NCBI GenBank assembly: GCA_004525155.1
Contig: SPDA01000009.1
Coordinates: 1 to 15,306, forward strand
Length of the DNA: 15,306 nt
Reading direction: 5' to 3'
From: Spirochaetales bacterium
GTDB lineage: Bacteria; Spirochaetota; Spirochaetia; SPDA01
Part shown: positions 2 to 15,306 of the stretch, in pieces
Layout: every line of letters starts with the position of its first letter
Numbering within the stretch: position 1 is the first letter of the stretch
The notes under the pieces: model-generated
What the model was told of the DNA's origin: nothing
What the model saw: only the letters and a program-made list of their open reading frames with translations
Database searches by the model: none
Program-made: the position numbers and the translations under genes

Positions 2-538
2 ACTTCGCCTGATAACAGGCCCGTCCTCCTGATATTAGGCGGCAGCCAGGGTTCAAGGCAGATCAACGACCTTGTTTTCGAGGCGCTTCCCGAACTTGCT
101 GCCAGATGTTTTGTCGTGCACCAGACCGGCCCGTCCGAAACACGGAATGCGGCACATGCGAATTACAGAAGTTTCTCCTACCTGGGTCCCGAGCTTGCAG
201 ATGTAATGGCCGCGGCCGATATAGTTCTGTCGAGGGCCGGGGCAAATGTGCTCTGGGAACTGGCTGTTCTGGGCAAGCCGTCGATACTGATTCCGCTGGA
301 CCTAACCGGCAGCAGGGGCGACCAGATAAAAAACGCCCGTTATTTCGCGGACCTTGGCGCCTCGATCGTCCTGAGCGGACAGGAGGTTACAACGAAACAT
401 CTATTCGCAACCCTAGACAGGCTCCTGGGAAATGGTGAATATCTGGCTGCGATGTCAAGGGCCGCTGCCGGGGCCTGCGTCAAAGATGCGGCTGACGTTA
501 TTGCGCGCATTCTTAAGGAGAACCTTACGCCATCATGA
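2..538 (+). CDS. murG: MurG, UDP-GlcNAc:undecaprenyl-PP-MurNAc-pentapeptide transferase (5' end outside window)
   Basis: This is the C-terminal half of MurG, the membrane-associated GT28 enzyme that adds GlcNAc to lipid I to make lipid II for peptidoglycan. The reading frame is open from base 2, so the start lies upstream. Visible family landmarks, in order, are GGSQGS followed by IND (start of the C-terminal Rossmann domain), the RAGANVLWEL donor-binding segment, PSILIPL, and DQIKNARYF. About 178 codons are present, against roughly 360 for a whole MurG. Its TGA overlaps the ATG of cvpA (ATGA), which indicates translational coupling in an operon. Identification is firm. Only the N-terminal acceptor domain is missing, because of the window edge. 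Confidence 0.95.
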   Translation, partial: TSPDNRPVLLILGGSQGSRQINDLVFEALPELAARCFVVHQTGPSETRNAAHANYRSFSYLGPELADVMAAADIVLSRAGANVLWELAVLGKPSILIPLDLTGSRGDQIKNARYFADLGASIVLSGQEVTTKHLFATLDRLLGNGEYLAAMSRAAAGACVKDAADVIARILKENLTPS

Positions 539-1023
539 CACTTAACACGTTCGATATCATCATGGGTCTGTTGTTTATTTTGCTTGTTATCCGCGGACTG
601 TTCCGGGGATTTGTAACGGAACTTCTCACCATGGTCGCCATTATTGCAGGCCTGGCCTGCGCCGTTTTTCTTTCGGGGCCCGCGGCCCTGTTTCTCCAGA
701 ACAACACACATCTCCAGTGGGGTACCCAGATAATTTCCTTTGCCGTCATTTTCATCGCTGTATTCGTCGTGGTTAAAATAATAGAAACCATCCTGCACCG
801 TGTATTCGAGTCGCTCAACCTGAAGCAGCTTGACAGGTTTCTCGGTTTTGTACTGGGGATTGCGGAAGGGTTTCTTCTCGTATGTCTTGTAGTTCTCATC
901 CTGGACAGGCAGCCTTTTTTTCCCACGGAAGCGCTTTACGCAAAAAGTTTTATTTACAGAATCATCGTTTCAATCCTGCCCTACGGCATCTCCATAATAA
1001 GGGACACAAAGATTCATGTTTGA
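535..1023 (+). CDS. cvpA: CvpA family inner-membrane protein
   Basis: A 162-residue hydrophobic protein with about four membrane segments (roughly residues 5-22, 27-48, 62-85 and 103-123). The Asp-Arg-Phe-Leu-Gly-x3-Gly-x3-Gly segment near residues 95-107 is typical of CvpA proteins. The family is known from colicin V production in E. coli and is linked to envelope homeostasis, but its molecular role is unsettled. The start is the ATG overlapping the murG stop, and the stop overlaps the next gene's start by 8 bases, so it sits inside a coupled operon. The fold assignment is well supported; the function remains general. Confidence 0.88.
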   Translation: MTLNTFDIIMGLLFILLVIRGLFRGFVTELLTMVAIIAGLACAVFLSGPAALFLQNNTHLQWGTQIISFAVIFIAVFVVVKIIETILHRVFESLNLKQLDRFLGFVLGIAEGFLLVCLVVLILDRQPFFPTEALYAKSFIYRIIVSILPYGISIIRDTKIHV

Positions 1024-2212
1024 AAATATCCTCGGCCAGCCGGCGGCGGTTCAGACGCTTTCGCAGAATCTTGAAGCTGGTGAGGTGCCCCGGTCACTGC
1101 TGTTTTACGGCGAACCCTACACAGGCAAACTTTCAACGGCGCTGGAACTCGCGAGAGTGCTTACCTGCGAACAGGGTTCCGCGGCCTGGAATTGTTCATG
1201 CGCTTCCTGCGGCCTTCACCGGGTTCTTCTCCATCCCGGAACGATAATGATGGGTCCCCGTTATTTCATGCGGGACATCACCGCTGCCGGGGACGTTCTC
1301 AAGCGGCATCCCAAACCTATAGCGCAGTATCTCTACCTGCGGGCCATGCGAAAACTTTTAAGGCGCCTGGACCCCTTACTGTGGGAGGGGAACGAACAAA
1401 AACTGAAAAAAATCAGCGATGCCTATTCGAGTCTGGAGGACAATCTCGAGCTAATCCATCCTGCCAGGTCCCTGCCGGAAGAGAAAAAACTTGTGAAGCT
1501 GCTTGATGAAAACAGGAATAATGCGGAAAAGATATGCGCTTCCGGTCTTCTCGATTCCGTTTCAATAGACAATATACGCAAAGTGACCTACTGGGCGCAT
1601 ACCACATCGCAGGGATACAATAAAATCATCATCCTGGAACACGCGGACAGGCTTCTGGAGAGCGCGAGGAACGCTTTTCTTAAAATACTCGAGGAACCGC
1701 CGTCGGGGGTGTATTTCATATTGCTCACAACTAACCGGCAGGGCGTTATCGATACCATCCTGTCCCGGGTGCGGTCACTCTACTTCATGCAGAGGACAGC
1801 GGAAACCTCGGGTCTGGTCATAGAAAAAATATTCCGCGACAATCCGGAAAATTTTAAAACCCTCGCCCAGTATTTCGAAACCTGGGAGGATGTGAATGCG
1901 GAAGAATTGAATGCCATTGCCCGGCGGTGGCTCCGCCTGCTCCTGCATGAGAAAGACGCGCTCGCCGCGGACAGGGAACTGGAAAACATCATTACCCAGC
2001 TTGCGCGTAAGGACCTTTCGTCGCGCTTTATCGTCAAGTTTACCGAACAGCTCAGGCTTTCCCTTTCGGGAGAGGCTGACCAGGTGCCTCTGGGAACACA
2101 GGAAAGATGGCTGGAAATTATCAGGCGCGGCGCCTCCAGAATGGAGGTATTCCATCAGAATCCCCAGCTCGTTTTCTCAAGCATGTTTTCCGAAATGAAG
2201 GTACAGGCATGA
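1016..2212 (+). CDS. holB: DNA polymerase III clamp-loader delta'-like AAA+ protein with a large internal insertion
   Basis: The 398-aa protein has a clamp-loader ATPase layout. The N-terminus MFENILGQPAAV resembles the delta'/gamma family. The P-loop (GEPYTGKLS, residues 32-40) has Leu after the Lys where Thr or Ser is expected. Four cysteines (51, 60, 62, 65) resemble the zinc module but with one residue missing between the second and third. The sensor region follows: a degenerate Walker B (IIILEHADR), NAFLKILEEPP and ILSRVRS in place of the SRC motif. These losses fit a delta' subunit that does not hydrolyse ATP. About 85-100 residues (roughly 78-178) separate the zinc module from SIDNIRKV, where usual delta' proteins have some 15-20. 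The insert is charged and probably helical. The gene lies between cvpA and the kinase, coupled to both. The exact subunit name is inferred. Confidence 0.78.
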   Translation: MFENILGQPAAVQTLSQNLEAGEVPRSLLFYGEPYTGKLSTALELARVLTCEQGSAAWNCSCASCGLHRVLLHPGTIMMGPRYFMRDITAAGDVLKRHPKPIAQYLYLRAMRKLLRRLDPLLWEGNEQKLKKISDAYSSLEDNLELIHPARSLPEEKKLVKLLDENRNNAEKICASGLLDSVSIDNIRKVTYWAHTTSQGYNKIIILEHADRLLESARNAFLKILEEPPSGVYFILLTTNRQGVIDTILSRVRSLYFMQRTAETSGLVIEKIFRDNPENFKTLAQYFETWEDVNAEELNAIARRWLRLLLHEKDALAADRELENIITQLARKDLSSRFIVKFTEQLRLSLSGEADQVPLGTQERWLEIIRRGASRMEVFHQNPQLVFSSMFSEMKVQA

Positions 2213-3387
2213 GAAGGTTCATAAAAAAAGCCCTGGAGATTTTTCAAAAACTCGATAAAAAACAGGTTTATTCCCTCCTCGTTGACATGGCCACGGAAAA
2301 CGAGCGGCTCGAAATGGCAATTGAATCGATGCCGGACGGCATAATGGTGAGCGACAAGGAGCACAGGCTTGTGCTCGTCAACAAGACTGCGGAGCGGCTG
2401 CTGCATATAACCATGCGCGACCTGAATGAACGCTTAGTATGGGAAATCGTGAACGATCAGGAAGTGTCGGATTTTATCCGTCAGACGCTTACGAACCAGG
2501 AAAAGATACCGGAAAAGGAATTCACCATGAACGAGGGTAACGGAAACATGTTTATCCTCTCATTTATTATTACCCCCTATGTAAAAGAAGGGACCGTGGA
2601 GGGGAACCTTATCCATATAAGCGACATTACGGAAAGGAAAAAACGGGAAGCCCGCCTGCGGAGGGCGGAAAGCCTGGCGTCCCTGACGACCCTTGCCGCG
2701 GGTGTTGCGCATGAAATCAAAAACCCTCTGGGCTCCATCAGTATTCACATTCAGCTCATAAAAAAATCGATTCAAAAAAAGAAAAAAATCGAACAGGCCG
2801 CCATGGAAGACCATCTGAAAATTATAGACGAGGAAATAAACCGTCTTAACGGAATAATCGTCGATTTTCTGTTCGCCGTACGGCCCATGAACACGAATCT
2901 GGAAAAAGAGAGTATTAACGACATTATCGAGGATTTGATGGAATTCATCCGTCCCGAACTCGAGAGTGCAAAGATAACCGTGGAACTCGGCCTGGAAAAG
3001 GACCTTCCGTATCTGCCTCTGGACGTAAAATATATCAAACAGGCGCTGCTCAACATTATTAAAAACGCCGAAGCGGCCATGCCGGAAGGCGGATATTTAC
3101 GGGTTACAACCAGGCAGGAGGAGGGTTTTATAACGGTGAAAATTGCGGATTCGGGAGCGGGTATTCCTGACCATCTCATGGACAAGATTTTCGAGCCTTA
3201 TTTTACAACAAAGGAATTCGGTTCGGGTCTAGGTCTTACGCTGGTGTATAAGATAATCAAGGAACATGACGGGGAAATCTCCGTAGAGTCCCGGGAAGGG
3301 AAGGGGACGACCTTTTCCCTGAATTTCCCGATTCCGCAGAAAGAGCAAAGGCTTATCGACTTCAAAGGAGCTGACAATGAAGTTTAA
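2209..3387 (+). CDS. Cytoplasmic PAS-domain sensor histidine kinase (NtrB/AtoS type)
   Basis: A 392-aa kinase. I chose the ATG at 2209, which overlaps the preceding TGA (ATGA) and has GAAGG seven bases upstream, instead of the in-frame ATG at 2107. No membrane segment is visible, so the sensor is cytoplasmic. A helical leader is followed by a PAS domain (about 33-145, beginning ESMPDGIMVSDKEHRLVLVN). The HisKA phosphoacceptor is His168 in GVAHEIKNPLGS. The ATP-binding domain has the N box (NIIKNAEAAMPEGG), G1 (DSGAGIP), F box (FEPYFTTKEFGSGLGL) and G2 (GKGTTFSLNFP). All catalytic motifs are intact. It overlaps the response regulator gene by 11 bases, so the two are almost certainly cognate partners. 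The signal is unknown; PAS points to an internal redox, ligand or energy cue. Confidence 0.93.
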   Translation: MRRFIKKALEIFQKLDKKQVYSLLVDMATENERLEMAIESMPDGIMVSDKEHRLVLVNKTAERLLHITMRDLNERLVWEIVNDQEVSDFIRQTLTNQEKIPEKEFTMNEGNGNMFILSFIITPYVKEGTVEGNLIHISDITERKKREARLRRAESLASLTTLAAGVAHEIKNPLGSISIHIQLIKKSIQKKKKIEQAAMEDHLKIIDEEINRLNGIIVDFLFAVRPMNTNLEKESINDIIEDLMEFIRPELESAKITVELGLEKDLPYLPLDVKYIKQALLNIIKNAEAAMPEGGYLRVTTRQEEGFITVKIADSGAGIPDHLMDKIFEPYFTTKEFGSGLGLTLVYKIIKEHDGEISVESREGKGTTFSLNFPIPQKEQRLIDFKGADNEV

Positions 3388-4732
3388 CGTACTCATCGTG
3401 GATGACGAAAAAAACATCAGGGAAGGCCTCGCTAAAGCGCTTGAAATGGACGGTTACGGAACACTGCTTGCGAAGGACGGCACGGACGCGTTATCCGTTT
3501 TCGAGAACAACGAGATAGATCTGGTTATATCGGACCTCAAAATGCCCAACATGTCAGGCGAGGATCTGCTTAAAAAAATCAGTTCTTCGACACCATCGAT
3601 ACCGGTCATCATCCTCACGGGGCATGGAACGATAGAGGCTGCCGTTCAGGCAATGCACAACGGCGCTTATGACTTTCTCACGAAACCGGTAAACCTCGAC
3701 AGATTATCGCTTCTGGTAAAAAGGGCCTTAAGCAGCAGGGAACTCATCCTTCAGTACCGGGTCCTGCAGGAGGAATTGAACAAGTCTCTCGGGAAACAAA
3801 AATACGCCAAAATAATAGGCAAAAGCAATGCCATGAAAAAGATACTGGAAGTTGTAGAACAGGTGGCTTCTAGCAGGGCTTCGATTCTTATTACCGGGGA
3901 GAGCGGCGTGGGGAAGGAACTTGTGGCAGATGCCATCCATAATCTCTCAAACCGGCGGGACAACCCTTTTATCAAGGTCCATTGCGCGGCTCTTACGGAA
4001 AGCCTTCTGGAAAGCGAGCTTTTCGGCCACGAAAAGGGCTCCTTTACCGGCGCCGTGGCGAGGAAGAGGGGCCGTTTCGAACTGGCCCACAACGGGTCCA
4101 TTTTTCTTGATGAAATCGGGGACATCAATTCCGCGGGTCAGGTAAAAATTCTAAGGGTGCTGCAGGAAAAAACTTTCGAAAGGGTGGGGGGAGAGGAAAC
4201 AATCGAGGTCGATGTGCGGATTATCGCTGCCACGAACAGGGATTTGAAGGAAGAAATCGCCCAGGGCAGGTTCCGGGAGGACCTTTATTACAGGCTCAAC
4301 GTCGTCACCATTCTTGTGCCTCCCCTGCGGGAAAGAAAAGAGGACATTCCCATCCTCACCGCCGCCTTCCTGAAGGAATTTTCCGCAGAAAACAACAGGG
4401 TAATCGAGGGCATAGATTCGAAAGCGATAAACGCGCTCTATTCCTATTCGTGGCCCGGCAATATACGGGAGCTTAGGAACTGCATTGAAAGCGCAGTTGT
4501 ACTCGCCAAGGGCAACATTATCGAACCGGACGATCTTCCGCCGGCCATATATTCGGCAAATGAAAAAAATTACATAAAAATTAATGTGGGTATGGATATG
4601 GCAATGGCGGAAAAACAGATAATCCAGGCAACATTGCACAGTCTAGGCGGAAACAAGTCCAAGACCGCGGAAATGTTAGGAATTGGAAGAAAGACCCTTC
4701 ACCGTAAAATTGAGGAATACGGCATAGAATAA
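3377..4732 (+). CDS. NtrC-family sigma-54-dependent response regulator (REC-AAA+-HTH)
   Basis: A 451-aa enhancer-binding protein with all three domains. The receiver (1-120) has Asp9/Asp10, phosphoacceptor Asp53 (VISDLKMPNMSG), Thr81 and Lys103. The AAA+ domain has Walker A GESGVGKEL (174-182), Walker B SIFLDEIGDI and the sigma-54 contact loop GSFTGA (221-226), a Ser variant of GAFTGA. The Fis-type helix-turn-helix at the C-terminus includes NKSKTAEMLGIGRKTLHRKI. AAAGGAG precedes the start by about six bases, and the gene overlaps the kinase gene. Phosphorylation should drive oligomerisation and ATP-dependent opening of sigma-54 holoenzyme promoters. One such promoter lies in this window at 11231-11246. 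That this protein acts there is inference. I recall the Treponema orthologue being labelled AtoC. Confidence 0.95.
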   Translation: MKFNVLIVDDEKNIREGLAKALEMDGYGTLLAKDGTDALSVFENNEIDLVISDLKMPNMSGEDLLKKISSSTPSIPVIILTGHGTIEAAVQAMHNGAYDFLTKPVNLDRLSLLVKRALSSRELILQYRVLQEELNKSLGKQKYAKIIGKSNAMKKILEVVEQVASSRASILITGESGVGKELVADAIHNLSNRRDNPFIKVHCAALTESLLESELFGHEKGSFTGAVARKRGRFELAHNGSIFLDEIGDINSAGQVKILRVLQEKTFERVGGEETIEVDVRIIAATNRDLKEEIAQGRFREDLYYRLNVVTILVPPLRERKEDIPILTAAFLKEFSAENNRVIEGIDSKAINALYSYSWPGNIRELRNCIESAVVLAKGNIIEPDDLPPAIYSANEKNYIKINVGMDMAMAEKQIIQATLHSLGGNKSKTAEMLGIGRKTLHRKIEEYGIE

Positions 4733-4735
4733 TTT

Positions 4736-5155
4736 TCAGATTTTCCGGGCTTCGAACCAGGCTTCCAGTTTGGCATAAGCCGAGTTTAATTCCTGAGTTT
4801 TTTCTGTGGCAATTTTTCGCGCCTCCGCGTTTCCGGCATGCTTGTCCGGGTGGTAGAGACTTATAATTTTTTTGTAGGCCTTTTTTACCTCTTCCAGGGA
4901 TGCGCCGAACCGAAGATTGAGCGTTTTATAATGCACCCGGAGGTCTTCCGGAATGACAGGTCCCCTGTTCTGCGTACCGTCCCGATTGAAATCAGGTTTT
5001 GGTTCCGATTTCCCCGTTTTAAGGAAATCGTCCAGTTCGTTCCAGGCATCCTGATAATCCGCATCGTGGGATTGAGGCCTGTGGCGGGTTTTCCCTTCTT
5101 CTTCGCTGAGGATCGATTTAAGCCAGTCGCCCAGTTTGTCAAAAAATTGGTCCAT
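4736..5155 (-). CDS. Small J-domain protein (class C DnaJ-like)
   Basis: A 139-aa soluble protein whose C-terminal half (about 73-139) is a J domain: HYKTLNLRFGASLEEVKKAY, then the HPD signature (residues 102-104) in SLYHPDKH, then a helix III/IV region. The J domain should stimulate the ATPase of a DnaK/Hsp70 partner. There is no Gly/Phe region, zinc module or client-binding C-terminal domain, so it is not DnaJ itself. The first 70 residues are charged, with an amphipathic start (MDQFFDKLGDWLKSIL), and match nothing I recognise. AAAGGAA sits at the right distance before the ATG, within the end of the DapF-like gene 8 bases upstream. Its stop lies 3 bases from the convergent response regulator stop, with no terminator between them. 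Confidence 0.9.
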   Translation of the reverse strand: MDQFFDKLGDWLKSILSEEEGKTRHRPQSHDADYQDAWNELDDFLKTGKSEPKPDFNRDGTQNRGPVIPEDLRVHYKTLNLRFGASLEEVKKAYKKIISLYHPDKHAGNAEARKIATEKTQELNSAYAKLEAWFEARKI

Positions 5156-5163
5156 TGTTTCCT

Positions 5164-6006: not shown

Positions 6007-6012
6007 GCAAAA

Positions 6013-6018
6013 AGTATA
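6013..6018 (-). promoter_or_regulatory. Candidate extended -10 element upstream of the DapF-like gene
   Basis: Read on the minus strand, TGgTATACT matches an extended -10 (TGnTATAAT, one mismatch in the hexamer). It ends six bases before the DapF-like ATG, so initiation would fall on or next to the start codon and give a leaderless transcript. No good -35 is seen. The element could be chance; the gene may simply be read through from lysC. Confidence 0.3.
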
Positions 6019-6068
6019 CCATGAGCTTCGGGAAAAAATCCATCACAATTCCTTTGGAATAACGTGCA

Positions 6069-7406: not shown

Positions 7407-7425
7407 TCCTTTCTCCTCCGAAACC

Positions 7426-7454
7426 TGAATATCATAACCCGGTCACTCTGTCAA
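7426..7454 (-). promoter_or_regulatory. Candidate sigma-70 promoter for lysC
   Basis: On the minus strand a perfect -35 TTGACA (7449-7454) is followed after 17 bases by TATTCA (7426-7431). GATATT at 15-base spacing is an alternative. The -10 is poor (3-4 of 6), so the call rests on the -35 and its position about 20 bases before the lysC start. Confidence 0.45.
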
Positions 7455-7507
7455 TCATTTTCCTGCTTCTCTACGGCACGTGTTTTACTGTACAATACCG
7501 GAACTTT

Positions 7508-9943
7508 ATGAACATTCTTGACAGATTCACTGAAGCCTCCATCGGGTACATGCGCAGAGAAATTATCGACGCCATGCGGAACGAAGTGCTGTGCGTAGGT
7601 CTTTGCGATAGAAGCGGAAGAATATCGGATATAAGCGCCGCAGCCAGGGGCAGCTCCGGCGAGGTGCCGGCCCTCTATCCCTTCATGGAAAAAGGCAATG
7701 TGGTTATTCACAATCACCCGTCGGGAAATCTTTCTCCGAGTCCGGCGGACCTTCAGGTCGCCTCCAGGCTGGGCAATGAGGGAATCGGTTTTTTCATCGT
7801 GAACAACGATGTAGACGATGTATACGTGGTCGCGGAACCCATTCCGGAGAGAATAACGGAATACCTGGACCCTTTAAAACTGCTGCCCCTCCTCGACAAA
7901 GGCGGCCGTCTCGAGGAACGGCTTCCCGGGTTCGAACCCAGGGCGGCCCAGCTCGATATGCTCTCGAGCATAATCGAGGCTTTCAACGAAGAGAAAATCT
8001 GCCTTGTGGAGGCGGGCACAGGGGTAGGCAAGTCCTTTGCCTATCTTGTCCCGGCCGTGCAGTGGGCTTCCCTCAACAATGAGCGGGTGGTGATATCAAC
8101 ATCCACCATCAACCTGCAGCAGCAGCTTATGGAAAAGGACATACCCGTGGTAGCCGATATCCTTGATTCCAAAGTAAAAACGGTGCTGGTAAAGGGCAGA
8201 GGTAATTATGTCTGTCTGCGCCGCCTGTATCATGTCCGGGACGAGGCGCCGCTGTTTCTTGAAACAGGCGACCAGCTGGAGGAACTCCTGGAATGGACGG
8301 AATCGACAAAAACCGGCTCAAGGCAGGACCTTTCATTTCTGCCTGACGAGCAGGTATGGTCCCAGGTATGCTCCGAGGCGGATGCCTGTCTGGGGATTCA
8401 CTGCAGACACAGGGACCGCTGTTTCGTTCTCAAAGCGAGAAGGGAGGCCGCTTCGGCCCGGGTTCTTCTCGTGAACCATCACCTGCTGTTTTCCGATGTC
8501 GCCATGCGGCTTAATGGAACCGGCCAGGAACAGACAGCGGTACTCCCCCCTTTCAGCAGAGTCATTTTCGACGAAGCCCACAATATGGAAACCGCAGCTA
8601 CCTCCTTTTTTTCCGAAAAAATAAACAAACTGGGTATTCTTAAACAGGTTTCCCTTCTGTACCGGAAAAAACAAAAAAAAGTCCTTGGGCTCGCGGCGGT
8701 TCTTGCCGGAAAGGGAATGAAAGGAGAACTCTTCAAGGGTATTCCCCGTTTGTATGCCTCCATAATCATGGAAACGGTGAATATGGAAGAAGAAACGGCG
8801 GATCTTTTTAACGGTTCCACGGCCCTGCGGCTTAAAGACCTGTCTGAGGAGTCGGCGGAAGTAATCATCGGTCATATTTCGAAAATCCGCTCTCTGCTGC
8901 TCAAGCTCATTCAGCTGTGTACTTCTGTGCTCGACGAGATTGATGCGGAGCAGGATCTTCCGGAACTCTATGAACTCGGCCTGGTGCGCAAAAGAATAAA
9001 CAGCATGGTTTCCACCTGCAACCAGTTTACCGACATGGAGGACTATCCGAACCAGATATTCTGGATGGAAAAATCGGTGTTGTCCGGCGGTGAAAGACTC
9101 ATCACTTTTTACAGCACTCCCCTTGATATTTCCGGACTGATGAAGGAATCGGTTTTTGACACCTACAGTACGGTGATATGCACATCGGCAAGCATGACCG
9201 TACAGGACAGCTTTACTCATTTCAAATCGCGGATAGGTCTCGCCGATACCGGACAGGAAAGAATTCTGGAATCCCTGCTTCCCTCACCCTTCCCGTTTAA
9301 AAAAAACGTGCTTCTCGCGGTGCCGGCTGATGCCCCTTTTCCCTCGGAACCGGGCTACATTTCTTTCATTGCGGGACTGCTGTATGACATTCTCCTTGTT
9401 TCCGAGGGAAAAGGCCTTGTACTGTTCACTTCCTTCGACATGCTCAACAGGGCTTACGAGTACACCTCTGCCAGACTTGAAAAGGCCGGCATAACCGTGC
9501 TCAGGCAGGGAACCCTCGACCGCTCCCGGCTTCTCAGCCGGTTTTCCCTGGAGATAAACAGCGTGCTTTTCGCTACGGATTCTTTCTGGGAAGGGATAGA
9601 CGCGCCCGGGGAAACCTGCAGCATCGTCATCATATGCAGGCTGCCGTTCAAGGTGCCGGCGGATCCCATTGTCAAAAGCAGGGTGGAAGCATTGGAGGCA
9701 AAGGGGAGAAACAGTTTTATGGAGTTTTCGGTTCCTTACGCAGCCATAAAACTGAAACAGGGTTTCGGCAGGCTGATACGGAAGGCTGACGACCGGGGCA
9801 TAGTTGTCATCATGGATCCGAGGATAGTCAGGAAAAATTACGGTCAGCTTCTGCTGTCCTCCCTGCCGGAAACGGGACGTTCTTTCAAGGACAGCCGGGA
9901 ACTTCTAGGCGATATAGAACGTTTTCTGTACACAAACCCGTAA
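7508..9943 (+). CDS. DinG/XPD-like Fe-S helicase with N-terminal RadC-like JAMM (JAB/MPN+) domain
   Basis: An 811-aa fusion. Residues 1-115 form a JAMM fold like the RadC C-terminal domain: Glu26 and HNHPSGNLSPSPAD, giving His68, His70, Ser78 and Asp81, the complete zinc-metalloprotease motif. From about 140 it is a superfamily 2 helicase: Walker A EAGTGVGKS (168-176), DEAH box (IFDEAHNME), FWEGIDAPGE (motif V) and QGFGRLIR (motif VI). Four cysteines, 236, 294, 299 and 305, have the C-x4-C-x5-C spacing of the DinG iron-sulfur cluster (Cys288 is extra). It probably unwinds 5'-tailed DNA, D-loops or R-loops during repair. Other DinG proteins carry an N-terminal DnaQ-like exonuclease or nothing there. 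No strong Shine-Dalgarno precedes the ATG. It is divergent from lysC with a 101-base gap. Domain calls are firm; the JAMM role is unknown. Confidence 0.92.
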   Translation: MNILDRFTEASIGYMRREIIDAMRNEVLCVGLCDRSGRISDISAAARGSSGEVPALYPFMEKGNVVIHNHPSGNLSPSPADLQVASRLGNEGIGFFIVNNDVDDVYVVAEPIPERITEYLDPLKLLPLLDKGGRLEERLPGFEPRAAQLDMLSSIIEAFNEEKICLVEAGTGVGKSFAYLVPAVQWASLNNERVVISTSTINLQQQLMEKDIPVVADILDSKVKTVLVKGRGNYVCLRRLYHVRDEAPLFLETGDQLEELLEWTESTKTGSRQDLSFLPDEQVWSQVCSEADACLGIHCRHRDRCFVLKARREAASARVLLVNHHLLFSDVAMRLNGTGQEQTAVLPPFSRVIFDEAHNMETAATSFFSEKINKLGILKQVSLLYRKKQKKVLGLAAVLAGKGMKGELFKGIPRLYASIIMETVNMEEETADLFNGSTALRLKDLSEESAEVIIGHISKIRSLLLKLIQLCTSVLDEIDAEQDLPELYELGLVRKRINSMVSTCNQFTDMEDYPNQIFWMEKSVLSGGERLITFYSTPLDISGLMKESVFDTYSTVICTSASMTVQDSFTHFKSRIGLADTGQERILESLLPSPFPFKKNVLLAVPADAPFPSEPGYISFIAGLLYDILLVSEGKGLVLFTSFDMLNRAYEYTSARLEKAGITVLRQGTLDRSRLLSRFSLEINSVLFATDSFWEGIDAPGETCSIVIICRLPFKVPADPIVKSRVEALEAKGRNSFMEFSVPYAAIKLKQGFGRLIRKADDRGIVVIMDPRIVRKNYGQLLLSSLPETGRSFKDSRELLGDIERFLYTNP

Positions 9944-9957
9944 AGAGGAAAAATGAT

Positions 9958-9991
9958 AAAAAAAAGGCTTTCCGGAAAATCCCGGAAAGCC
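9958..9991 (-). terminator. Rho-independent terminator of groES
   Basis: Read on the minus strand: a perfect 10-bp stem (GGCTTTCCGG/CCGGAAAGCC), a 6-base loop, then eight T residues, starting about 30 bases after the groES stop. On the plus strand the same stem lies 22 bases after the helicase stop but has no T-tract, so it is at best a weak terminator in that direction. Confidence 0.93.
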
Positions 9992-10021
9992 CTTGTGAAT
10001 GATACCTGCAGATACTTAAAA

Positions 10022-10288
10022 TTAGTTGATTGTTGCGAGAATATCAGCCATTTTAAGAATGAGGTGATCAGCTCCGTCGATCTTGACGTTGGTTCCCGCG
10101 TACTTGTCGTACATTACTTTGTCCCCGCTCTTTACCTTGATGGCATCTTTGTCATCACCGACGGCAACAACTTTCCCTATCTGCGTCTTTTCCTGCGCGG
10201 TCTGGGGAATGTAAATACCGCCCTTTGTTTTCTCTTCCACTTCTTCCATCTTTACGAGCACACGATCGCCAAGTGGTTTGATCTTCAT
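10022..10288 (-). CDS. groES: GroES (10 kDa co-chaperonin)
   Basis: An 88-aa co-chaperonin that caps GroEL and releases folded substrate in the cytoplasm. The sequence starts [20 protein letters not shown] and continues with [14 protein letters not shown] (mobile loop) and [16 protein letters not shown], a full-length and undamaged GroES. AGGAGG lies five bases before the ATG. It has its own promoter (10343-10371) and terminator (9958-9991), so it is a single-gene unit. No groEL is adjacent on either side, unlike the usual groESL operon. I recall the same separation in Treponema pallidum. Confidence 0.97.
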
Positions 10289-10342
10289 ATAGTCCTCCTG
10301 AAACGCTATAATTTAACCTGTTGTATTTGTATTTTCTTGAAA

Positions 10343-10371
10343 AATATACGTACGACAGCCTGCATGGTCAA
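10343..10371 (-). promoter_or_regulatory. Sigma-70-type promoter for groES
   Basis: On the minus strand TTGACC (10366-10371), exactly 17 bases, then TATATT (10343-10348); each hexamer matches consensus at 5 of 6. The predicted start near 10336 gives a leader of about 48 bases carrying the strong ribosome binding site. No CIRCE inverted repeat for HrcA is visible, so heat control, if any, works by another route. Confidence 0.8.
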
Positions 10372-10386
10372 GCAAATTGTAAAGAG

Positions 10387-10415
10387 TTGCCGAAAAAAAC
10401 AATTGTGAGTATTTT
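10387..10415 (+). promoter_or_regulatory. Possible promoter for the TPR/SEC-C gene, divergent from groES
   Basis: TTGCCG (10387-10392), 17 bases, then TATTTT (10410-10415), each 4 of 6 to consensus. It would start transcription just before the ATG at 10432. The groES -35 lies only 15 bases away on the other strand, so the two promoters would share one short control region. Weak on sequence alone. Confidence 0.35.
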
Positions 10416-10431
10416 AGTTACGTGATCTGAT

Positions 10432-11100
10432 ATGGAAACATGGAACAGTTTTTTCAACAAAGGTAAACACAGTTTAACCCGACACAAACCTCATGAGGCT
10501 CTTCCTTTTTTTATAGAAGCCTTAAACTGTTGTCCTGTAACGGACAATAAATCCCATGCCCGGATTCTGTTTTACCTTGGCGCTACCCTTAAAAAGCTCC
10601 GCTTCGATAATTCAGCTCTCAAGTCCTGGATTCTCGGGATGAAATTTAACAAAGTAGGGTATTCCTTCAAGATGATTCAGCGGTTTTCCAACGAATACGG
10701 CATGATTAAGCAGGATTCAACATCGATGGACGACTGGCAGGCATTTTTTTCACTGCAGCTGGCAAAATACATCCAGGGGAAAAAAACAAAAAAAATCGGT
10801 TCGCCTGCGGAACTGGACATGGTAAAGGACCTGATTTATGATTTCTGGAAAGAAGTACAGGGGCACATTGCAGATATGAAGGCAAACGAGAAAACAGCGT
10901 TTTTCAGAAGTGTGACCATAATGTTCCCTATCCCCGGAAACCGGCAGGAATTCGCCACCCAGGAGGCCATTCCTTACAATTTCAGGCTCAAGAAACACAT
11001 TACGGGTACCATGAGGTGCTTTTGCGGTTCGAACATTCCCTATGCCCTCTGCTGCGGCCGCATTACATCGGGAGAAGAGTTGATAAATGGTTGTTTTTGA
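10432..11100 (+). CDS. TPR-like protein with C-terminal SEC-C zinc motif
   Basis: A 222-aa soluble protein. Residues 1-95 look like about two helical TPR-type repeats (FFNKGKHSLTRHKPHEALPF, then ILFYLGATLKKLRFDNSALK). The C-terminus has a SEC-C motif, CFCGSNIPYALCCG (Cys196, 198, 207, 208), the zinc-binding tail seen in SecA and many stand-alone proteins. The helical middle (100-180) has no recognisable domain. The ribosome binding site is poor. It is divergent from groES and ends 171 bases before the sigma factor gene. SEC-C tails commonly mediate binding to proteins or ribosomes, so an adaptor role in proteostasis is possible. That is a guess, as no function can be read from the sequence. 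Confidence 0.8.
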   Translation: METWNSFFNKGKHSLTRHKPHEALPFFIEALNCCPVTDNKSHARILFYLGATLKKLRFDNSALKSWILGMKFNKVGYSFKMIQRFSNEYGMIKQDSTSMDDWQAFFSLQLAKYIQGKKTKKIGSPAELDMVKDLIYDFWKEVQGHIADMKANEKTAFFRSVTIMFPIPGNRQEFATQEAIPYNFRLKKHITGTMRCFCGSNIPYALCCGRITSGEELINGCF

Positions 11101-11117
11101 TACAAAATACAGCCCGT

Positions 11118-11154
11118 TTCCGGAATATGTGTAATATTGACACACATTACGGAA
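11118..11154. promoter_or_regulatory. Inverted repeat, candidate upstream activator site for the sigma-54 promoter
   Basis: Arms TTCCGGAATATGTGT (11118-11132) and ACACACATTACGGAA (11140-11154) pair at 13 of 15 positions across a 7-base centre. The dyad centre (11136) is about 122 bases upstream of the start site predicted from the sigma-54 promoter, which is the usual distance for an NtrC-type enhancer. It also begins 18 bases after the TPR/SEC-C stop, so a hairpin at the end of that transcript is an alternative. The T-tract expected of an intrinsic terminator is missing (TTTGAG follows). Confidence 0.5.
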
Positions 11155-11230
11155 TTTGAGTGTTCTAGCCGGAAAAATATTTTATAAGTGTTTATGTAAT
11201 ATAAAATTATAAATCCGTAAAATTGCTGAC

Positions 11231-11246
11231 TTGGCACGGTACTTGC
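11231..11246 (+). promoter_or_regulatory. Sigma-54 (-24/-12) promoter of the sigma factor gene
   Basis: TTGGCACG-N4-TTGC followed by A is a complete match to the RpoN consensus, with GG (11233-11234) and GC (11245-11246) exactly one helical turn apart. The predicted start is near 11258, giving a leader of about 14 bases that begins right at the GGAGGA ribosome binding site (11259-11264). An AT-rich stretch (11172-11230) separates it from the dyad upstream and could help DNA looping. No clear -35/-10 pair is needed to explain expression. Confidence 0.9.
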
Positions 11247-11271
11247 ATAGGTATATGCGGAGGACAGAATC

Positions 11272-12147
11272 ATGACAACAACAAAACCAGTAAAAAAGCA
11301 GAAATCAGCCCTCGGCGATGATGAAAATATACTTTCACTTTACCTTAAAGAAATCAATAAGATCCCCCTTTTAACCAGGGAAGAAGAAAACAGGTACGCA
11401 CGCGAGGCCGCCACAGGCGACTCTAACGCAAAAAACATGCTGATAAAAAGCAATCTGCGCTTTGTCGTCAATGTGGCAAAAAAATATCAGAACCAGGGTC
11501 TTCCCCTTTCCGACCTCATAAGCGAAGGCAACATCGGTATCATGAATGCCATCGATCGGTACGATGTAGACAAGGGCTACCATTTTATTTCCTACGCCGT
11601 CTGGTGGATCCGGCAGGCAATTTTAAAGGCAATATGTGAAAAATCCAGAATGATCCGTCTTCCCTTAAACCGTGCCAACGAACTGGTTCAGATTGAGAAG
11701 GCGCGCAAGGAACTGTTGAACCAGAAGGGAGACGAACCGGACATGAAGGAAATTGCGGACATAGTCATGATGGACAAAGACCATGTAAATGACCTTCTCT
11801 CCATCTCCCGCGAGCTAGTATCCCTGGATACACCGGTATACTCCGAAAAGGATTCTTCCAGCCTGGGAGAATTCATCGAGGACAAGGGATACAAGATGCC
11901 GCTGGATGAAATTGTTGAACGCTCCCTGCAGGACGACATCAACCAGGTCCTGACAAGCCTGAGTAAAAAAGAAGCGGACATAATCGAGTACCGTTTCGGA
12001 CTAAATGGCAAGAAATCCATGTCTTTAAAAGAAATAGGCGATCAGTACAACCTTACGAAAGAAAGGATAAGGCAGATAGAAAAAAAGGCCCTGAAAAGGC
12101 TTCAACATCCTTCCCGCTCCCAGTATCTCGAGGCATATACAGCCTAA
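11272..12147 (+). CDS. Group 2 (RpoS/RpoD-like) sigma-70 family factor
   Basis: A 291-aa sigma factor without region 1.1, the size of non-essential group 2 factors. Region 1.2 starts near DENILSLYLKEINKIPLLTR. Region 2 has SNLRFVVNVAKKYQNQGL and ISEGNIGIMNAIDRYD. Promoter-melting and -10 recognition (2.3-2.4) read HFISYAVWWIRQAILKAI, where primary factors have FSTYATWWIRQAI. Region 4.2 has MSLKEIGDQYNLTKERIRQI and ends HPSRSQYLEAY. The near-standard 2.4 and 4.2 suggest it reads promoters close to those of the housekeeping factor. GGAGGA lies eight bases before the ATG. Expression should depend on sigma-54 and an activator, given the promoter at 11231-11246. I recall Treponema calling the factor beside groES sigma-43. 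Whether it is a functional RpoS counterpart is inference. Confidence 0.93.
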   Translation: MTTTKPVKKQKSALGDDENILSLYLKEINKIPLLTREEENRYAREAATGDSNAKNMLIKSNLRFVVNVAKKYQNQGLPLSDLISEGNIGIMNAIDRYDVDKGYHFISYAVWWIRQAILKAICEKSRMIRLPLNRANELVQIEKARKELLNQKGDEPDMKEIADIVMMDKDHVNDLLSISRELVSLDTPVYSEKDSSSLGEFIEDKGYKMPLDEIVERSLQDDINQVLTSLSKKEADIIEYRFGLNGKKSMSLKEIGDQYNLTKERIRQIEKKALKRLQHPSRSQYLEAYTA

Positions 12148-12162
12148 ATCAGGCAGAATGTG

Positions 12163-12191
12163 TTGACCTGGAAAGCCATCCGGTATAGTAT
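12163..12191 (+). promoter_or_regulatory. Candidate promoter of the tRNA-Leu/tRNA-Thr unit
   Basis: TTGACC (12163-12168) is followed by TATAGT at 15-base spacing (12184-12189) or TAGTAT at 17 (12186-12191), 13-20 bases before tRNA-Leu. The -35 is strong. The -10 can be read two ways. Confidence 0.55.
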
Positions 12192-12203
12192 GTTCACGCT
12201 CCC

Positions 12204-12288
12204 GCCGGAGTGGTGAAATTGGTAGACACAGAGGACTTAAAATCCTCCGGCTGTATAAGCTGTACCGGTTCAAGTCCGGTCTCCGGCA
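12204..12288 (+). tRNA. tRNA-Leu (anticodon TAA)
   Basis: The acceptor stem GCCGGAG pairs with CTCCGGC (12281-12287), discriminator A. The anticodon stem GAGGA/TCCTC encloses CTTAAAA with anticodon TAA for UUA codons. It has a long class II variable arm as expected for Leu and a T arm with GGTTCAAGTCC. The 3' CCA is not encoded (ACCT follows), so CCA must be added enzymatically. Confidence 0.95.
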
Positions 12289-12294
12289 CCTAAC

Positions 12295-12368
12295 GCCACC
12301 TTAGCTCAGCTGGCCAGAGCACGTGACTTGTAATCTCGGGGTCTTCGGTTCGAATCCGAAAGGTGGCT
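12295..12368 (+). tRNA. tRNA-Thr (anticodon TGT)
   Basis: Acceptor GCCACCT pairs with AGGTGGC (12361-12367), discriminator T. D arm GCTC/GAGC, anticodon loop CTTGTAA with anticodon TGT, five-base variable loop, and T arm TTCGG/CCGAA. The anticodon stem CGTGA/TCTCG has a T-T mismatch at its middle pair, a small irregularity. CCA is not encoded. It starts only 6 bases after tRNA-Leu, so the two are probably cotranscribed. Confidence 0.93.
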
Positions 12369-12394
12369 TGACATATCGGTAATATTATTTTAAT
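12368..12394 (+). promoter_or_regulatory. Possible promoter overlapping the tRNA-Thr 3' end
   Basis: A perfect TTGACA (12368-12373) starts on the tRNA-Thr discriminator base. TTTAAT lies at 15-base spacing (12389-12394); at 17 bases only TAATGT is found. It would start transcription near 12400, covering the structured spacer and tRNA-Tyr. Confidence 0.4.
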
Positions 12395-12429
12395 GTACCA
12401 ACCACAAAAGTGAGCGTTCAAGTAGTATA

Positions 12430-12491
12430 TGCAGTTTCAGAACCGGGGTGTTCTGAGACTGCAAGCTTAATCAGTGGGTCCACGGGACCTA
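12430..12491 (+). other. Structured spacer: two adjacent hairpins before tRNA-Tyr
   Basis: The first hairpin has a 14-bp stem (arms 12430-12443 and 12450-12463, one G-U pair) and loop CGGGGT. The second (arms TGGGTCC 12475-12481 and GGACCTA 12485-12491, one G-U) has a 3-base loop. Neither has a T-tract, so they are not canonical terminators. They could be a processed tRNA leader or a small RNA. I do not recognise the family, and no open frame of note is present. Confidence 0.55.
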
Positions 12492-12502
12492 GGGATTGAG
12501 CC

Positions 12503-12584
12503 GGGGAGATTCCCGAGCGGCCAAAGGGGGCAGACTGTAAATCTGTTGGTTACACCTTCGAAGGTTCGAATCCTTCTCTCCCCA
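12503..12584 (+). tRNA. tRNA-Tyr (anticodon GTA)
   Basis: Acceptor GGGGAGA pairs with TCTCCCC (12577-12583), discriminator A. The anticodon stem CAGA/TCTG flanks CTGTAAA with anticodon GTA. The class II long variable arm is typical of bacterial Tyr, and the T arm is GAAGG/CCTTC. CCA is not encoded. Confidence 0.95.
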
Positions 12585-12612
12585 GTAGTTCTCAACAAGG
12601 AACGGGACATCG

Positions 12613-13050
12613 ATGCAGGGAAATTTTTATGATAAGGGTTTAAGTTTTACCTGTGTAAGGTGTTCCCGGTGCTGCAGAATCGAACCTGGGTTCGTTTTCC
12701 TGTCTGCGCGGGATTGTAAAAAAATGGCGGATTTTTTCTCCATTGCCGTACCTGTTTTCCTGGAAAAATACTGCAGAATAGTCGACATAGGCGCATTCAA
12801 ACGGTACAGTCTCCGGGAAAAAGACAATTACGACTGCATTTTCTGGGAAAATGGAAAGTGTATCGTTTATGAATCCCGTCCGCGTCAGTGCAGCTCCTAT
12901 CCCTTCTGGCCCGCGAATTTGATGGATGCCGAAGCATGGAACAGTCTTCAGACCACCTGTCCCGGTATCAATCAGGGTAAAAAACATTCGAAAAAAGATA
13001 TAAAGGGCGTTCTTGCTCTCCGGCAGGAAGAACCGCTTATTTCACTATAG
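12613..13050 (+). CDS. CxxCxxCC (YkgJ/UPF0153-type) metal-binding protein
   Basis: A 145-aa protein with the full cysteine pattern of the YkgJ family: CVRCSRCC (Cys14, 17, 20, 21), then YDCIFWENGKCIVYESRP (Cys75, 83), RQCSSYPFWP (Cys93) and a late Cys116. The family is thought to bind a zinc or iron-sulfur site, but its reaction is not established. No signal peptide or membrane segment is visible, so it is cytoplasmic. The ATG follows tRNA-Tyr by 28 bases with a modest AAGGAACGGG upstream, so it may be read from the tRNA transcript. A long bulged hairpin follows its stop. Confidence 0.87.
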   Translation: MQGNFYDKGLSFTCVRCSRCCRIEPGFVFLSARDCKKMADFFSIAVPVFLEKYCRIVDIGAFKRYSLREKDNYDCIFWENGKCIVYESRPRQCSSYPFWPANLMDAEAWNSLQTTCPGINQGKKHSKKDIKGVLALRQEEPLISL

Positions 13051-13057
13051 ATTTTGA

Positions 13058-13120
13058 GCGCAGTTTTCGACAATTATATATGATACCGATACTAAAATTC
13101 GGTATCATCGAAAACCGCGC
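13058..13120. repeat. Long bulged inverted repeat between the YkgJ-like and MBL genes
   Basis: The inner stem is a perfect 10 bp (ATGATACCGA 13080-13089 with TCGGTATCAT 13099-13108, loop of 9). The outer stem of 12 bp (13058-13069 with 13109-13120, one A-C mismatch) is stacked directly on the right side and separated on the left by a 10-base AT-rich bulge (13070-13079). It lacks a T-tract, so it may be an operator, an RNA leader structure for the MBL gene, or a bidirectional terminator hairpin. Confidence 0.7.
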
Positions 13121-13150
13121 GGCTTTTCGCCCGGCGGAGGAGGCGTTTTT

Positions 13151-14098
13151 GTGAAAGTCAGATTCTGGGGCGTGCGCGGCTCGATTCCCACCCCTCTAAC
13201 CATCAATCAGATTCAGGGCAAAATATCGTCCATAGCGCAGCGGCTGTCACCGGCGGATCTCGTCAGCGAGGAGAGCATCGAAAAATTCCTCGCAATGCTT
13301 CCTCCCTACCTCATGGGTGCCGTGGGAGGCAATACGACCTGCGTCGAAGTACGGCTCAATGACGATACCATAATTATTTTTGACTGCGGTTCCGGCATTA
13401 CCGATCTTGCCCACGCGCTTAAAAAAGAGGACCGGTATATCAGGACCTATCATATCTTTTTTTCGCATTTTCACTGGGACCATATCCAGGGTCTGCCTTT
13501 TTTTGTACCCATTGCCTATGATCCGAAATGTACGATTCATTTTTACAGTCCCATCAGAAATTTTGAGGATCTGCTGAAAAACCAGATGAAGGTTCCCTAC
13601 TTCCCTGTAACCATGGACGTCATGGGAGCTGATATATCGTACCACGTGCTGACGGAGCCGATTATTCGAATCGGTTCATCGGAAGTGATGTGGAAGCGTG
13701 TCAAACATCCCGGCGGATGTTTCAATTACAAGGTCCGTGAAAACGGAAATACCCTCATTTTCGCCACGGACACGGAACTTACGGAACAGGACTTCAAAAA
13801 GACGAAAGAAAACGTAGACTTTTACGAGGATGTCGACGCAATCATACTGGACAGCCAGTACACGCTGGGGGAAGCCATCGAAAAATATGACTGGGGGCAT
13901 TCATCCTACAGTATGGCTGTCGATTTTGTTAATGAGTGGGCAATCAAAAACCTGTATCTTTTTCACCATGAACCGCAGTATGACGATAAAAAGATTTATT
14001 CGATTCTTCAATCTGCCAAATGGTACATGAATCACCTGGATCCCGATCACGACAAAAATATATATTTGGCCCGGGAAAACCTGGAATTTGACGTATAA
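13151..14098 (+). CDS. Metallo-beta-lactamase-fold hydrolase
   Basis: A 315-aa MBL-fold protein opening MKVRFWGVRGSIPTP, typical of a widespread family related to RNase Z and PhnP. Metal ligands are intact: SHFHWDH (His106, His108, Asp110, His111), His186 in VKHPGG, Asp207 in FATDTE and His272 in FHHEP; GHSS (250-253) is also present. It should be a two-metal phosphodiesterase or related hydrolase; the substrate cannot be read from sequence. Residues 15-55 add a helical segment between the opening strand and GGNTTCVEV. The start is GTG at 13151, with GGAGGAGG seven bases upstream. The stop abuts the next ATG, so it heads an operon with the 72-aa gene and mltG. Confidence 0.9.
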   Translation: MKVRFWGVRGSIPTPLTINQIQGKISSIAQRLSPADLVSEESIEKFLAMLPPYLMGAVGGNTTCVEVRLNDDTIIIFDCGSGITDLAHALKKEDRYIRTYHIFFSHFHWDHIQGLPFFVPIAYDPKCTIHFYSPIRNFEDLLKNQMKVPYFPVTMDVMGADISYHVLTEPIIRIGSSEVMWKRVKHPGGCFNYKVRENGNTLIFATDTELTEQDFKKTKENVDFYEDVDAIILDSQYTLGEAIEKYDWGHSSYSMAVDFVNEWAIKNLYLFHHEPQYDDKKIYSILQSAKWYMNHLDPDHDKNIYLARENLEFDV

Positions 14099-14317
14099 AT
14101 GATAAACCTCACGGAAATGGAGATGCTGGGGCTGTATGTCCTTTTACGGCGCCATGAAAAGGATCTGGATTCAAACACGGCCGGCATAAAACATAAAATT
14201 GAAGAACTGCTTTTCGACCTCCTTACCATCGATGAACTTGAAAACCTCGAACAGAGCTATGTACTTGAAGGCCGGACCCTGATGGAACGGTTGAAACATA
14301 AAGGGGATACCGCATAA
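14099..14317 (+). CDS. Small hypothetical protein between MBL and mltG genes
   Basis: A 72-aa acidic, helical, soluble protein that I do not recognise. It begins MINLTEMEMLGLYVLLRRHE and has no cysteines, signal peptide or membrane segment. Its ATG follows the MBL stop with no gap, and its own stop is one base before the mltG ATG. Such exact packing on both sides supports a real, translationally coupled gene. Its start has no independent Shine-Dalgarno, in line with reinitiation. It may be a partner of the MBL protein or of MltG. Confidence 0.72.
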   Translation: MINLTEMEMLGLYVLLRRHEKDLDSNTAGIKHKIEELLFDLLTIDELENLEQSYVLEGRTLMERLKHKGDTA

Positions 14318-14318
14318 C

Positions 14319-15306
14319 ATGAAAAAATCCAACGGCTTTCGCGTACTGCTGATACTGGTAATACTTGTCATTGTTCTTGCCGGCGGTCTTTTAGGCACGG
14401 CCTTTCTGCTCAACAGTCCCGGCAAGGCCGTCGCGTCCGCGGATGCATCCTTCAGCATTACCAAAGGTGAAAATCTGCACAGCCTTGCCCGCCGCCTTTA
14501 CGGGGAACGGATAATACATTCCGCCCGTTTCCTGCGCCTTCTTGCAAGGGCCTTGAAGACGGAAACACTGTTCAAGGCAGGAACGTATACAATTCCCGCC
14601 GGCAGCACGACGCTCGCGATACACGACCTTTTCGTTGAGGGAACGCAGACCCTGGTCAAGGTAACCGTGCCGGAAGGCTTTACCCTTTCAAGGATAGCCC
14701 GGCTGCTCGAGGAAAAAGGTCTGGTCAAGGCCGACGATTTTAAAACAGTCTGCATGGACAGAAGTTTTCTCGAATACTTCCGGATTCCGGGGAAATCGGC
14801 GGAAGGCTACCTCTTTCCGGATACCTATTTTTTCTCGCCCGCCATGGACGCGAGAGATCTGGCGGATGACATGATAACCAACTTTTACAAGCGGCTTGGG
14901 GAAATAGTCCCCGGATACGAGACGATGAAACCCGCGGACCTTTACGATAAAATCATCGTGGCATCGATTGTGGAGCGGGAATACAGGGTAGCCTCCGATG
15001 CTCCGAAAATAGCCTCTGTTTTCTACAACCGCCTCAAGATAAATATGGGTCTCGGTTCCTGCGCCACCATCGAATACATAATAACCGATATCGAGGGGAA
15101 ACCGCATCCCGAGTATCTCAAAAAGGAGGATCTGGAAATTAAATCAAATTACAATACCTATATGTGGGCAGGTCTTCCGCCCTGGCCGATTTCCAATCCG
15201 GGCCTGATTGCTCTCAAGGCGGCCTTTTATCCGGAAAAATCATCGTACATGTATTTTCTGCTGAAAGATCCGGCAACGGGGGAGCATGTCTTCACAAACA
15301 GTATAG
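14319..15306 (+). CDS. mltG: MltG, endolytic murein transglycosylase (3' end outside window)
   Basis: The first 329 codons of an MltG/YceG protein that cleaves nascent glycan strands at the inner membrane. A short basic N-terminus is followed by one membrane anchor (about 8-31), then a LysM-like domain (about 44-92, ITKGENLHSLARRLYG). The catalytic domain shows AEGYLFPDTYFFSP, ASIVEREY (catalytic Glu219 by alignment with E. coli), VFYNRLKINMGL, then NYNTYMWAGLPPWPISNPGL. Where the family usually has LQSDPTV, this reads LGSCATI, a small departure next to the active site. The ATG begins one base after the preceding stop. The frame runs open to the last base. It works in the same pathway as murG at the other end of the window. 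Confidence 0.95.
   Translation, partial: MKKSNGFRVLLILVILVIVLAGGLLGTAFLLNSPGKAVASADASFSITKGENLHSLARRLYGERIIHSARFLRLLARALKTETLFKAGTYTIPAGSTTLAIHDLFVEGTQTLVKVTVPEGFTLSRIARLLEEKGLVKADDFKTVCMDRSFLEYFRIPGKSAEGYLFPDTYFFSPAMDARDLADDMITNFYKRLGEIVPGYETMKPADLYDKIIVASIVEREYRVASDAPKIASVFYNRLKINMGLGSCATIEYIITDIEGKPHPEYLKKEDLEIKSNYNTYMWAGLPPWPISNPGLIALKAAFYPEKSSYMYFLLKDPATGEHVFTNSI

Follow-up and report, generated by a model that had tools for sequence, protein, structure and literature searches.

The closest described counterpart of the locus considered here is the Hk2-Rrp2-RpoN-RpoS pathway of Borrelia, in which the NtrC-type response regulator Rrp2, together with RpoN (sigma-54), switches on rpoS. A 2019 study describes Borrelia as having "appropriated" RpoN to transcribe rpoS (PMC6719511). 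Rrp2 showed no binding to DNA in the vicinity of rpoS, and activation needed no upstream sequence, i.e., it was enhancer-independent (PMC1976401). A minimal promoter was enough for Borrelia rpoS, for which a sigma-70-type long transcript has also been reported (PMC11109971). Among the sigma-54 regulons of 1,414 organisms, analyzed in 2025, genes of the sigma-70 type (COG0568) were associated with sigma-54 generally (PMC12316311), and according to a review of the sigma factors of Leptospira, also from 2025, RpoS is absent from L. interrogans (PMC12655853). The present analysis concerns a stretch of 15,306 nucleotides from a Spirochaetales bacterium of the class Spirochaetia (contig SPDA01000009.1, positions 1 to 15,306; hereafter the window), which contains a histidine kinase gene, an NtrC-type regulator gene and, further downstream, a gene for a group 2 sigma factor of a family designated S1. 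The comparisons make it quite likely that these components form a two-step cascade, in which the kinase and regulator act through a tandem enhancer on a sigma-54 promoter and thereby on the S1 sigma gene. The kinase-regulator pair is orthologous to Hk2-Rrp2, and the S1 gene is a paralogue rather than the orthologue of RpoS.

The -24/-12 promoter TTGGCACGGTACTTGCA occupies positions 11231-11247 of the forward strand and was recognized by motif match, weight matrix and conservation in orthologues. It has the form TTGGCACG-N4-TTGC, with 26 nt between the C of TTGC and the ATG (11272) of the 291-aa sigma factor gene; the full RpoN consensus that a first-pass annotation had placed at this distance is confirmed. 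The GG and GC cores lie 10 bp apart, and the wider context YTGGCACG-N4-TTGCW is matched exactly. With zero mismatches, TGGCACG-N4-TTGC has this single match in the window; when up to three mismatches are allowed, 36 matches appear, which is the same as chance (mean 34.6). It is also the only window site scoring at least 13, the threshold for a strong site, with a sigma-54 weight matrix. The claim that no second site of equal quality exists in the window and that the match is unlikely to be noise thus holds, and conservation in orthologues places the site well beyond chance. The predicted transcription start, at about 11258, coincides with the position expected in the annotation and would give a leader of 14 nt, CGGAGGACAGAATC, with a Shine-Dalgarno sequence (CGGAGG) at its beginning. 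A genome-wide scan of the kind proposed there gave four matches to TGGCAYG-N4-TTGCW in the whole 3.18-Mb assembly to which the window belongs (G000), compared with none for the reversed pattern. The rpoN gene, a prerequisite of any such cascade, was found in the same assembly (G000:C221) and was detected in 59 of 60 genomes.

Conservation was evaluated in two sets of orthologues, which were collected after a search for sigma factors had given matches, RpoD included, in 60/60 genomes. The first set comprises 50 S1 loci (30 plus 20 more), including the window's own copy; the other members share 59-79% identity with the latter. A sigma-54 site scoring at least 13 precedes 45 of these 50 genes, distributed over 26 family codes, and in 41 of those 45 loci the start codon lies 23-30 nt downstream of the site. 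Among RpoD and other group 2 paralogues of the same genomes (22 genes given), a strong site occurs in 0/19 evaluable cases. The second set was drawn from named genomes (Spirochaetes metagenome-assembled genomes (MAGs), Treponema sp. MAGs and Breznakiella homolactica) and is made up of the 80 best loci. Of these, 79 were evaluable; 8 had already been part of the first set, and 71 are new. Scored with the same matrix, 70 of the 71 new loci have a site, compared with 6 of 350 control windows taken from these same loci. Conservation upstream of orthologous sigma genes, which the annotation had suggested checking, is thus evident in both sets. Outside the class, a sigma-54-like site scoring at least 13 was present in 11 of 20 upstream regions of good matches.

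A feature missed by the annotation is a tandem enhancer. A palindrome with the consensus TGTGTCATTTTGACACA occurs in two copies 40 bp apart, approximately 100-145 bp before the promoter. The distal copy of this upstream activator sequence (UAS), TGGTTGTTTTTGATACA, lies at 11088..11104 on the forward strand, overlaps the end of the preceding gene and scores 14.1 with the UAS matrix; the proximal copy, TGTGTAATATTGACACA, lies at 11128..11144 on the same strand and scores 20.1. These are the only matches scoring at least 11 in the window. The matrix was begun from the consensus, trained on 24 regions and tested on 26 held-out regions, 25 of which contain at least two copies; the corresponding value for Markov-resampled regions was 0.1. 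The sole miss is L002, whose contig ends 106 nt upstream. When all 50 enhancer regions (48 of the 50 promoter loci, with L045 and L051 excluded, plus L090 and L091) are taken together, 56 of 60 successive spacings fall at 39-41 bp. In the second set, promoter and enhancer pair occur together in 55 of the 71 new loci. All 79 loci together contain 65 pairs, sought at 38-42 bp and spaced by 40 (60 pairs) or 41 bp (5 pairs), and no pair was found in 350 control windows. A combined pattern of enhancer half-site and promoter has one match in G000, at the S1 gene (control 0), and 47 matches in the 60 genomes, compared with 2 in the control. Outside the class, an enhancer pair 40-42 bp apart was found in 6 of the 20 regions (L271, L272, L275, L276, L277 and L283).

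Nine divergent S1-like copies (L085-L093; 46-62% identical) were kept outside the 50-locus set. Two of them, L092 and L093 of family f22, combine a strong enhancer match with a degenerate promoter-like site (GGGAACA...TTGC, score 11.4). The reverse arrangement is observed in a treponeme-like genome of 1.1 Mb (L267, G076:C1:1104663-1105535), where a sigma-54-like site, ATGGCATGATATTTGCT, precedes an S1-like gene and no enhancer match was found. This retention of the site with no enhancer found parallels Borrelia rpoS.

Between enhancer and promoter, an A+T-rich conserved element near AAnTnnTTATAnnnTAAnnAATTA lies at 11186..11210 on the forward strand (score 15.7) and starts 45 nt before the sigma-54 site. 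A motif trained on half of the loci was tested on 26 held-out ones, 21 of which lie above the 95% level of the control. Such an element occurs about 45-50 nt before the sigma-54 site at many S1 promoters, as well as at many promoters of a second sigma family (S2) and of hsp20 genes, both discussed below. It may be a DNA-bending or UP-like site, and it is treated as a minor feature because its position drifts in the second set. Two other sigma-54 loci of G000 were recorded. One site (G000:C84, L130 1878-1894) has no S1 enhancer and lies before a gene which is taken to encode a glutamine synthetase-like protein. The other locus (L129, G000:C4:1317-1456) has two divergent sites about 110 bp apart, the rightward of which precedes a 519-aa open reading frame. 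The A+T-rich element is absent at glnA and at this divergent pair.

The sigma factor gene extends over 11272..12147 on the forward strand. In its 291-aa product, sigma-70 regions 1.2, 2, 3 and 4 were detected, region 1.1 is not among the listed domains, and the score stays below the curated cut-offs of all RpoD and RpoS models listed, including TIGR02394, the proteobacterial RpoS equivalog (271.3 against a cut-off of 378.7 bits). Consequently, it is assigned to the group 2 factors. It shares regions 1.2 to 4 with RpoS and the cyanobacterial types of this group, but differs from them in falling below the RpoS/RpoD cut-offs and in forming its own group in trees. Many relatives have a separate match of RpoD length (e.g., 575-650 aa). 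RpoD was not found in G000, where the whole assembly gave a single sigma match, probably because this MAG is incomplete.

The signaling pair lies upstream on the same strand. The kinase (2209..3387), the orthologue of Borrelia Hk2, has Pfam matches to PAS, HisKA and HATPase_c and lacks any membrane-like segment (maximum 19-residue hydropathy 0.89), in agreement with its annotation as a cytoplasmic protein. The response regulator (3377..4732), the orthologue of Rrp2 and the proposed activator of the sigma gene, contains REC, Sigma54_activat and HTH_8 domains, a GSFTGA loop and the helix IGRKTLHRKI of a Fis-type helix-turn-helix; the recognition helix and the GAFTGA-type loop are conserved in relatives. 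Both genes are intact, as the annotation had described for the segment 2209-4732. The AtoC and NtrC models match the regulator only below their cut-offs. With activators of the NtrC/AtoC type it shares the REC-AAA-Fis architecture, the GAFTGA-type loop and paired palindromic upstream sites; it differs from them in that its proposed target is a sigma factor.

The relation to Borrelia was examined in three genomes of family f21, which may be taken as Borreliaceae-like by their gene content. All three contain murG, a holB-like gene, the histidine kinase and the response regulator in the window's order, together with rpoS. The one locus that was fully read runs, in the order of transcription, rpoS, a deacetylase gene, tsaD, a gene which is presumably pdxK, murG, cvpA, the holB-like gene, the kinase and the regulator. 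In the window, the left part of this block (2..2212, forward strand) comprises the end of murG, a cvpA-like gene and a gene for a DNA polymerase III delta'-like protein, and the order murG-cvpA-holB-kinase-regulator is common to the window, the Borreliaceae-like loci and other spirochaete loci. The regulators are 56-57% identical and the kinases 38%. Since the block corresponds to the window's left part and the regulator reaches this identity, the pair is identified with Hk2-Rrp2. The Borreliaceae-like rpoS is preceded by a -24/-12 promoter as well, TTGGCAYGATTTTTGC. However, the S1 enhancer is absent from the 300 bp before it, which agrees with the published accounts of enhancer-independent activation (PMC1976401) and of a sufficient minimal promoter (PMC11109971). 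The S1 searches gave at most two sigma-70-type matches in these genomes, RpoD and RpoS, and no S1. B. burgdorferi and the window have in common sigma-54, a group 2 sigma gene driven from a -24/-12 promoter and, within the same gene block, orthologous genes for a PAS kinase and a regulator of the NtrC type. They differ in that the window's sigma gene belongs to a paralogous family, lies downstream of the regulator and has a tandem enhancer. Its mechanism would thus differ from the enhancer-independent one of Borrelia, where rpoS has no such enhancer. Taken together, the kinase, regulator, enhancer, promoter and sigma gene appear to constitute an old module that extends through most of the examined families of the class, with traces elsewhere in the phylum.

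In the proposed mechanism, the cytoplasmic PAS kinase would phosphorylate the adjoining NtrC-type regulator, and the phosphorylated regulator would bind the two palindromes 40 bp apart. Through DNA looping, it would then open the sigma-54 polymerase at its promoter, as expected from the established sigma-54 mechanism. Transcription from the -24/-12 site would supply the S1 factor, which would redirect polymerase to an S1 regulon. The sites, their spacing and conservation, and the predicted gene identities were derived by sequence comparison, and the binding and activation steps would follow from them. Several observations weigh against this reading. The sigma-54 weight matrix was entered by hand, and the enhancer consensus was typed after all upstream regions had been read. 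Five of the 50 orthologues are without a strong site: L009, whose site scores 12.1 and keeps its core; L045, from a genome (G036) with several S1-like copies; L051; and L054 and L056 of family f26, in which the promoter GG is altered to AG. Only four of the nine divergent copies have a strong site (L088, L089, L090 and L091), so promoter conservation fades with distance, and 16 of the 71 new loci of the second set are without a strict 40-bp pair beside a strong site. The regulator and sigma genes are far apart on one contig in 7 of the 55 genomes with an S1-like gene and on different contigs in 23. The window's assembly itself is fragmentary (88% complete, 687 contigs), and it contains eight matches to PF00158, the family of enhancer-binding proteins (EBPs), of which most of the 60 relatives also have several.

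Owing to these eight EBPs, the link between the regulator and the promoter rests on the relatives. With a detection limit of E <= 1e-30 for PF00158, to which all 60 genomes have matching proteins, a single EBP was found in G008, G012, G033, G037 and G055. In each case this EBP is orthologous to the regulator of the window (56-64% identity; partial in G033), no S2 gene was found in any of these genomes, and all five keep the promoter and an enhancer pair spaced by 39-40 bp. The regulator must consequently serve this promoter, provided that no EBP was missed. In addition, the regulator and sigma genes lie 3.1-12.1 kb apart on the same contig and strand in 25 of the 55 genomes. The NtrC-type regulator of the window is thus very probably the activator of the S1 sigma gene. 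That a different EBP of the genome binds a genuine promoter and tandem enhancer would fit the multiplicity of EBPs and the seven genomes with distant genes, but the single-EBP genomes and the frequent proximity of the two genes make this unlikely. It is far less credible still that the sigma gene depends mainly on a promoter of the sigma-70 type and has its -24/-12 match by accident. The long transcript of Borrelia rpoS (PMC11109971) and the A+T-rich element upstream of the window's gene could be cited for such a promoter, but the site recurs in 45/50 and 70/71 orthologues and in 0/19 paralogues, and it is accompanied by a phased enhancer.

A further alternative holds that Borrelia RpoS and the window's sigma gene are direct orthologues and belong to the same cascade. 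The EBP and sigma-54 are the same in both, RpoS is 33% identical to S1 over 260 aa, and an approximately unbiased (AU) test does not reject a clade of Borrelia RpoS and S1 (p = 0.09). However, the comparison with the second family, S2, found in 36 of 60 genomes (with a search model that contained one Borrelia row), makes this very improbable. At S2 loci of other spirochaetes, tsaD, which is taken here to correspond to COG0533, follows in 6/6 cases, a Polysacc_deac_2 gene lies between in five (not in L128), and a Rod-binding (flgJ) gene precedes S2 in 5/6, L132 ending at a contig edge. The Borreliaceae-like rpoS has all three of these neighbors, with flgJ before it and the Polysacc_deac_2 gene and then tsaD after it. 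Moreover, Borrelia RpoS is 42% identical to S2 and groups with it at 100/99 in trees, on a very long branch, while S1 and its divergent copies form a separate group. Six genomes (G003, G017, G019, G024, G026 and G029) hold S1 and S2 together. The candidate orthology between S1 and RpoS (BB0771) was accordingly rejected on gene order and identity, both of which place RpoS in S2, and the trees agree. The first-pass annotation had inferred a cascade homologous to that of Borrelia; the sigma-54-to-group 2 cascade and the orthology of the pair to Hk2-Rrp2 (synteny, 56-57% identity) stand, whereas the sigma gene as the counterpart of RpoS does not, as gene order puts RpoS in S2.

The S2 genes have control elements of their own. 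In 35 of the 36 copies (G013, at a contig edge, was left out), upstream regions were compared, those of Borrelia type included, and 32 of them have a sigma-54 site scoring at least 13. Since S2 is thus driven by sigma-54 in other spirochaetes, the control of RpoS by sigma-54 seems to predate Borrelia. Of 31 evaluable non-Borrelia loci, 30 have a single palindrome near TGTATA-N6-TATACA some 110 nt ahead of the site; the fraction in the Markov control was 0.05, and the consensus was typed after reading the S2 upstream regions. This palindrome occurs in 0/3 Borrelia-like loci and at the same place in 1 of 49 S1 regions, and the S1 enhancer occurs in 0/35 S2 upstream regions, of which that of L081 is only 66 nt long. 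In the three Borreliaceae-like genomes, neither the S1 nor the S2 palindrome has a copy in the 200-300 bp before rpoS, and because both enhancers are missing there, the Lyme cascade looks like a reduced and rewired remnant of an older network. One reconstruction, about equally likely to be right or wrong, is that an early lineage had two sigma-54-driven sigma genes, each with a conserved enhancer of its own. At S1, the Rrp2 orthologue would have acted through the tandem palindrome with its 40-bp spacing; at S2, i.e., RpoS, another EBP would have used the single TGTATA-N6-TATACA. In the Borrelia lineage, both enhancers would then have disappeared along with S1 and the second EBP, and Rrp2 would have been reassigned to the promoter of the surviving rpoS. 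If true, such a reassignment after enhancer loss would explain enhancer-independent activation at Borrelia rpoS.

The distribution of the combined pattern gives an indication of the regulon. Of its 47 places in the 60 genomes, 21 are at S1 genes (in 20 genomes) and 26 elsewhere. Nineteen of these 26 were examined, and 13 of them lie before a small heat-shock gene; among places with a matrix-supported enhancer, the share is 13/14. One further hsp20 case, in G012, brings the total to 13 genomes, and all 14 proteins match Pfam HSP20 (PF00011). Because the palindrome and a -24/-12 site precede hsp20 in 13 relatives, a proteotoxic-stress input is suggested. In this respect, the system resembles sigma-54-driven small heat-shock genes. 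In G000, a single hsp20 was found, and it is preceded by no copy of the enhancer and by no sigma-54 site, which speaks against the suggestion. Other genes of the window include a J-domain gene (4736-5155) beside the regulator, which recurs in L073, L074 and L076, and groES (10022-10288, by sequence reading), which recurs near the sigma gene or dinG in L073-L076. Their recurrence may be a further hint of a link to protein stress. The sigma gene is followed by genes for tRNA-Leu, tRNA-Thr and tRNA-Tyr at 12204-12584.

In the open-access literature, neither an RpoN-sigma cascade spanning the spirochaetes nor this enhancer was found described; subscription literature lay mostly outside the search. 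The 2025 regulon study assigns COG0533 to a cluster with enrichment in Spirochaetia, in keeping with the order of S2 and tsaD, and the database of that study may hold some of the sites described here (PMC12316311). Compared with the known cascade, the wider spread and greater age, the new enhancer and the rewiring hypothesis would probably not be expected by specialists. The RpoN-RpoS switch is a central regulatory pathway of Lyme borreliae, and both of its halves appear in many other spirochaetes, where they are accompanied by enhancers that Borrelia rpoS lacks. For the Rrp2 family, the palindrome would supply a defined DNA sequence; an earlier search for a binding site at rpoS had been unsuccessful (PMC1976401). 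The comparison also predicts a stress-linked regulon, comprising sigma S1 and, in a number of relatives, Hsp20, for organisms in which the literature search found no description of the pathway. Enhancer independence may accordingly be recast as a story of loss and rewiring, and the comparison suggests that the virulence switch of the Lyme bacterium descends in reduced form from an older system of a general kind.
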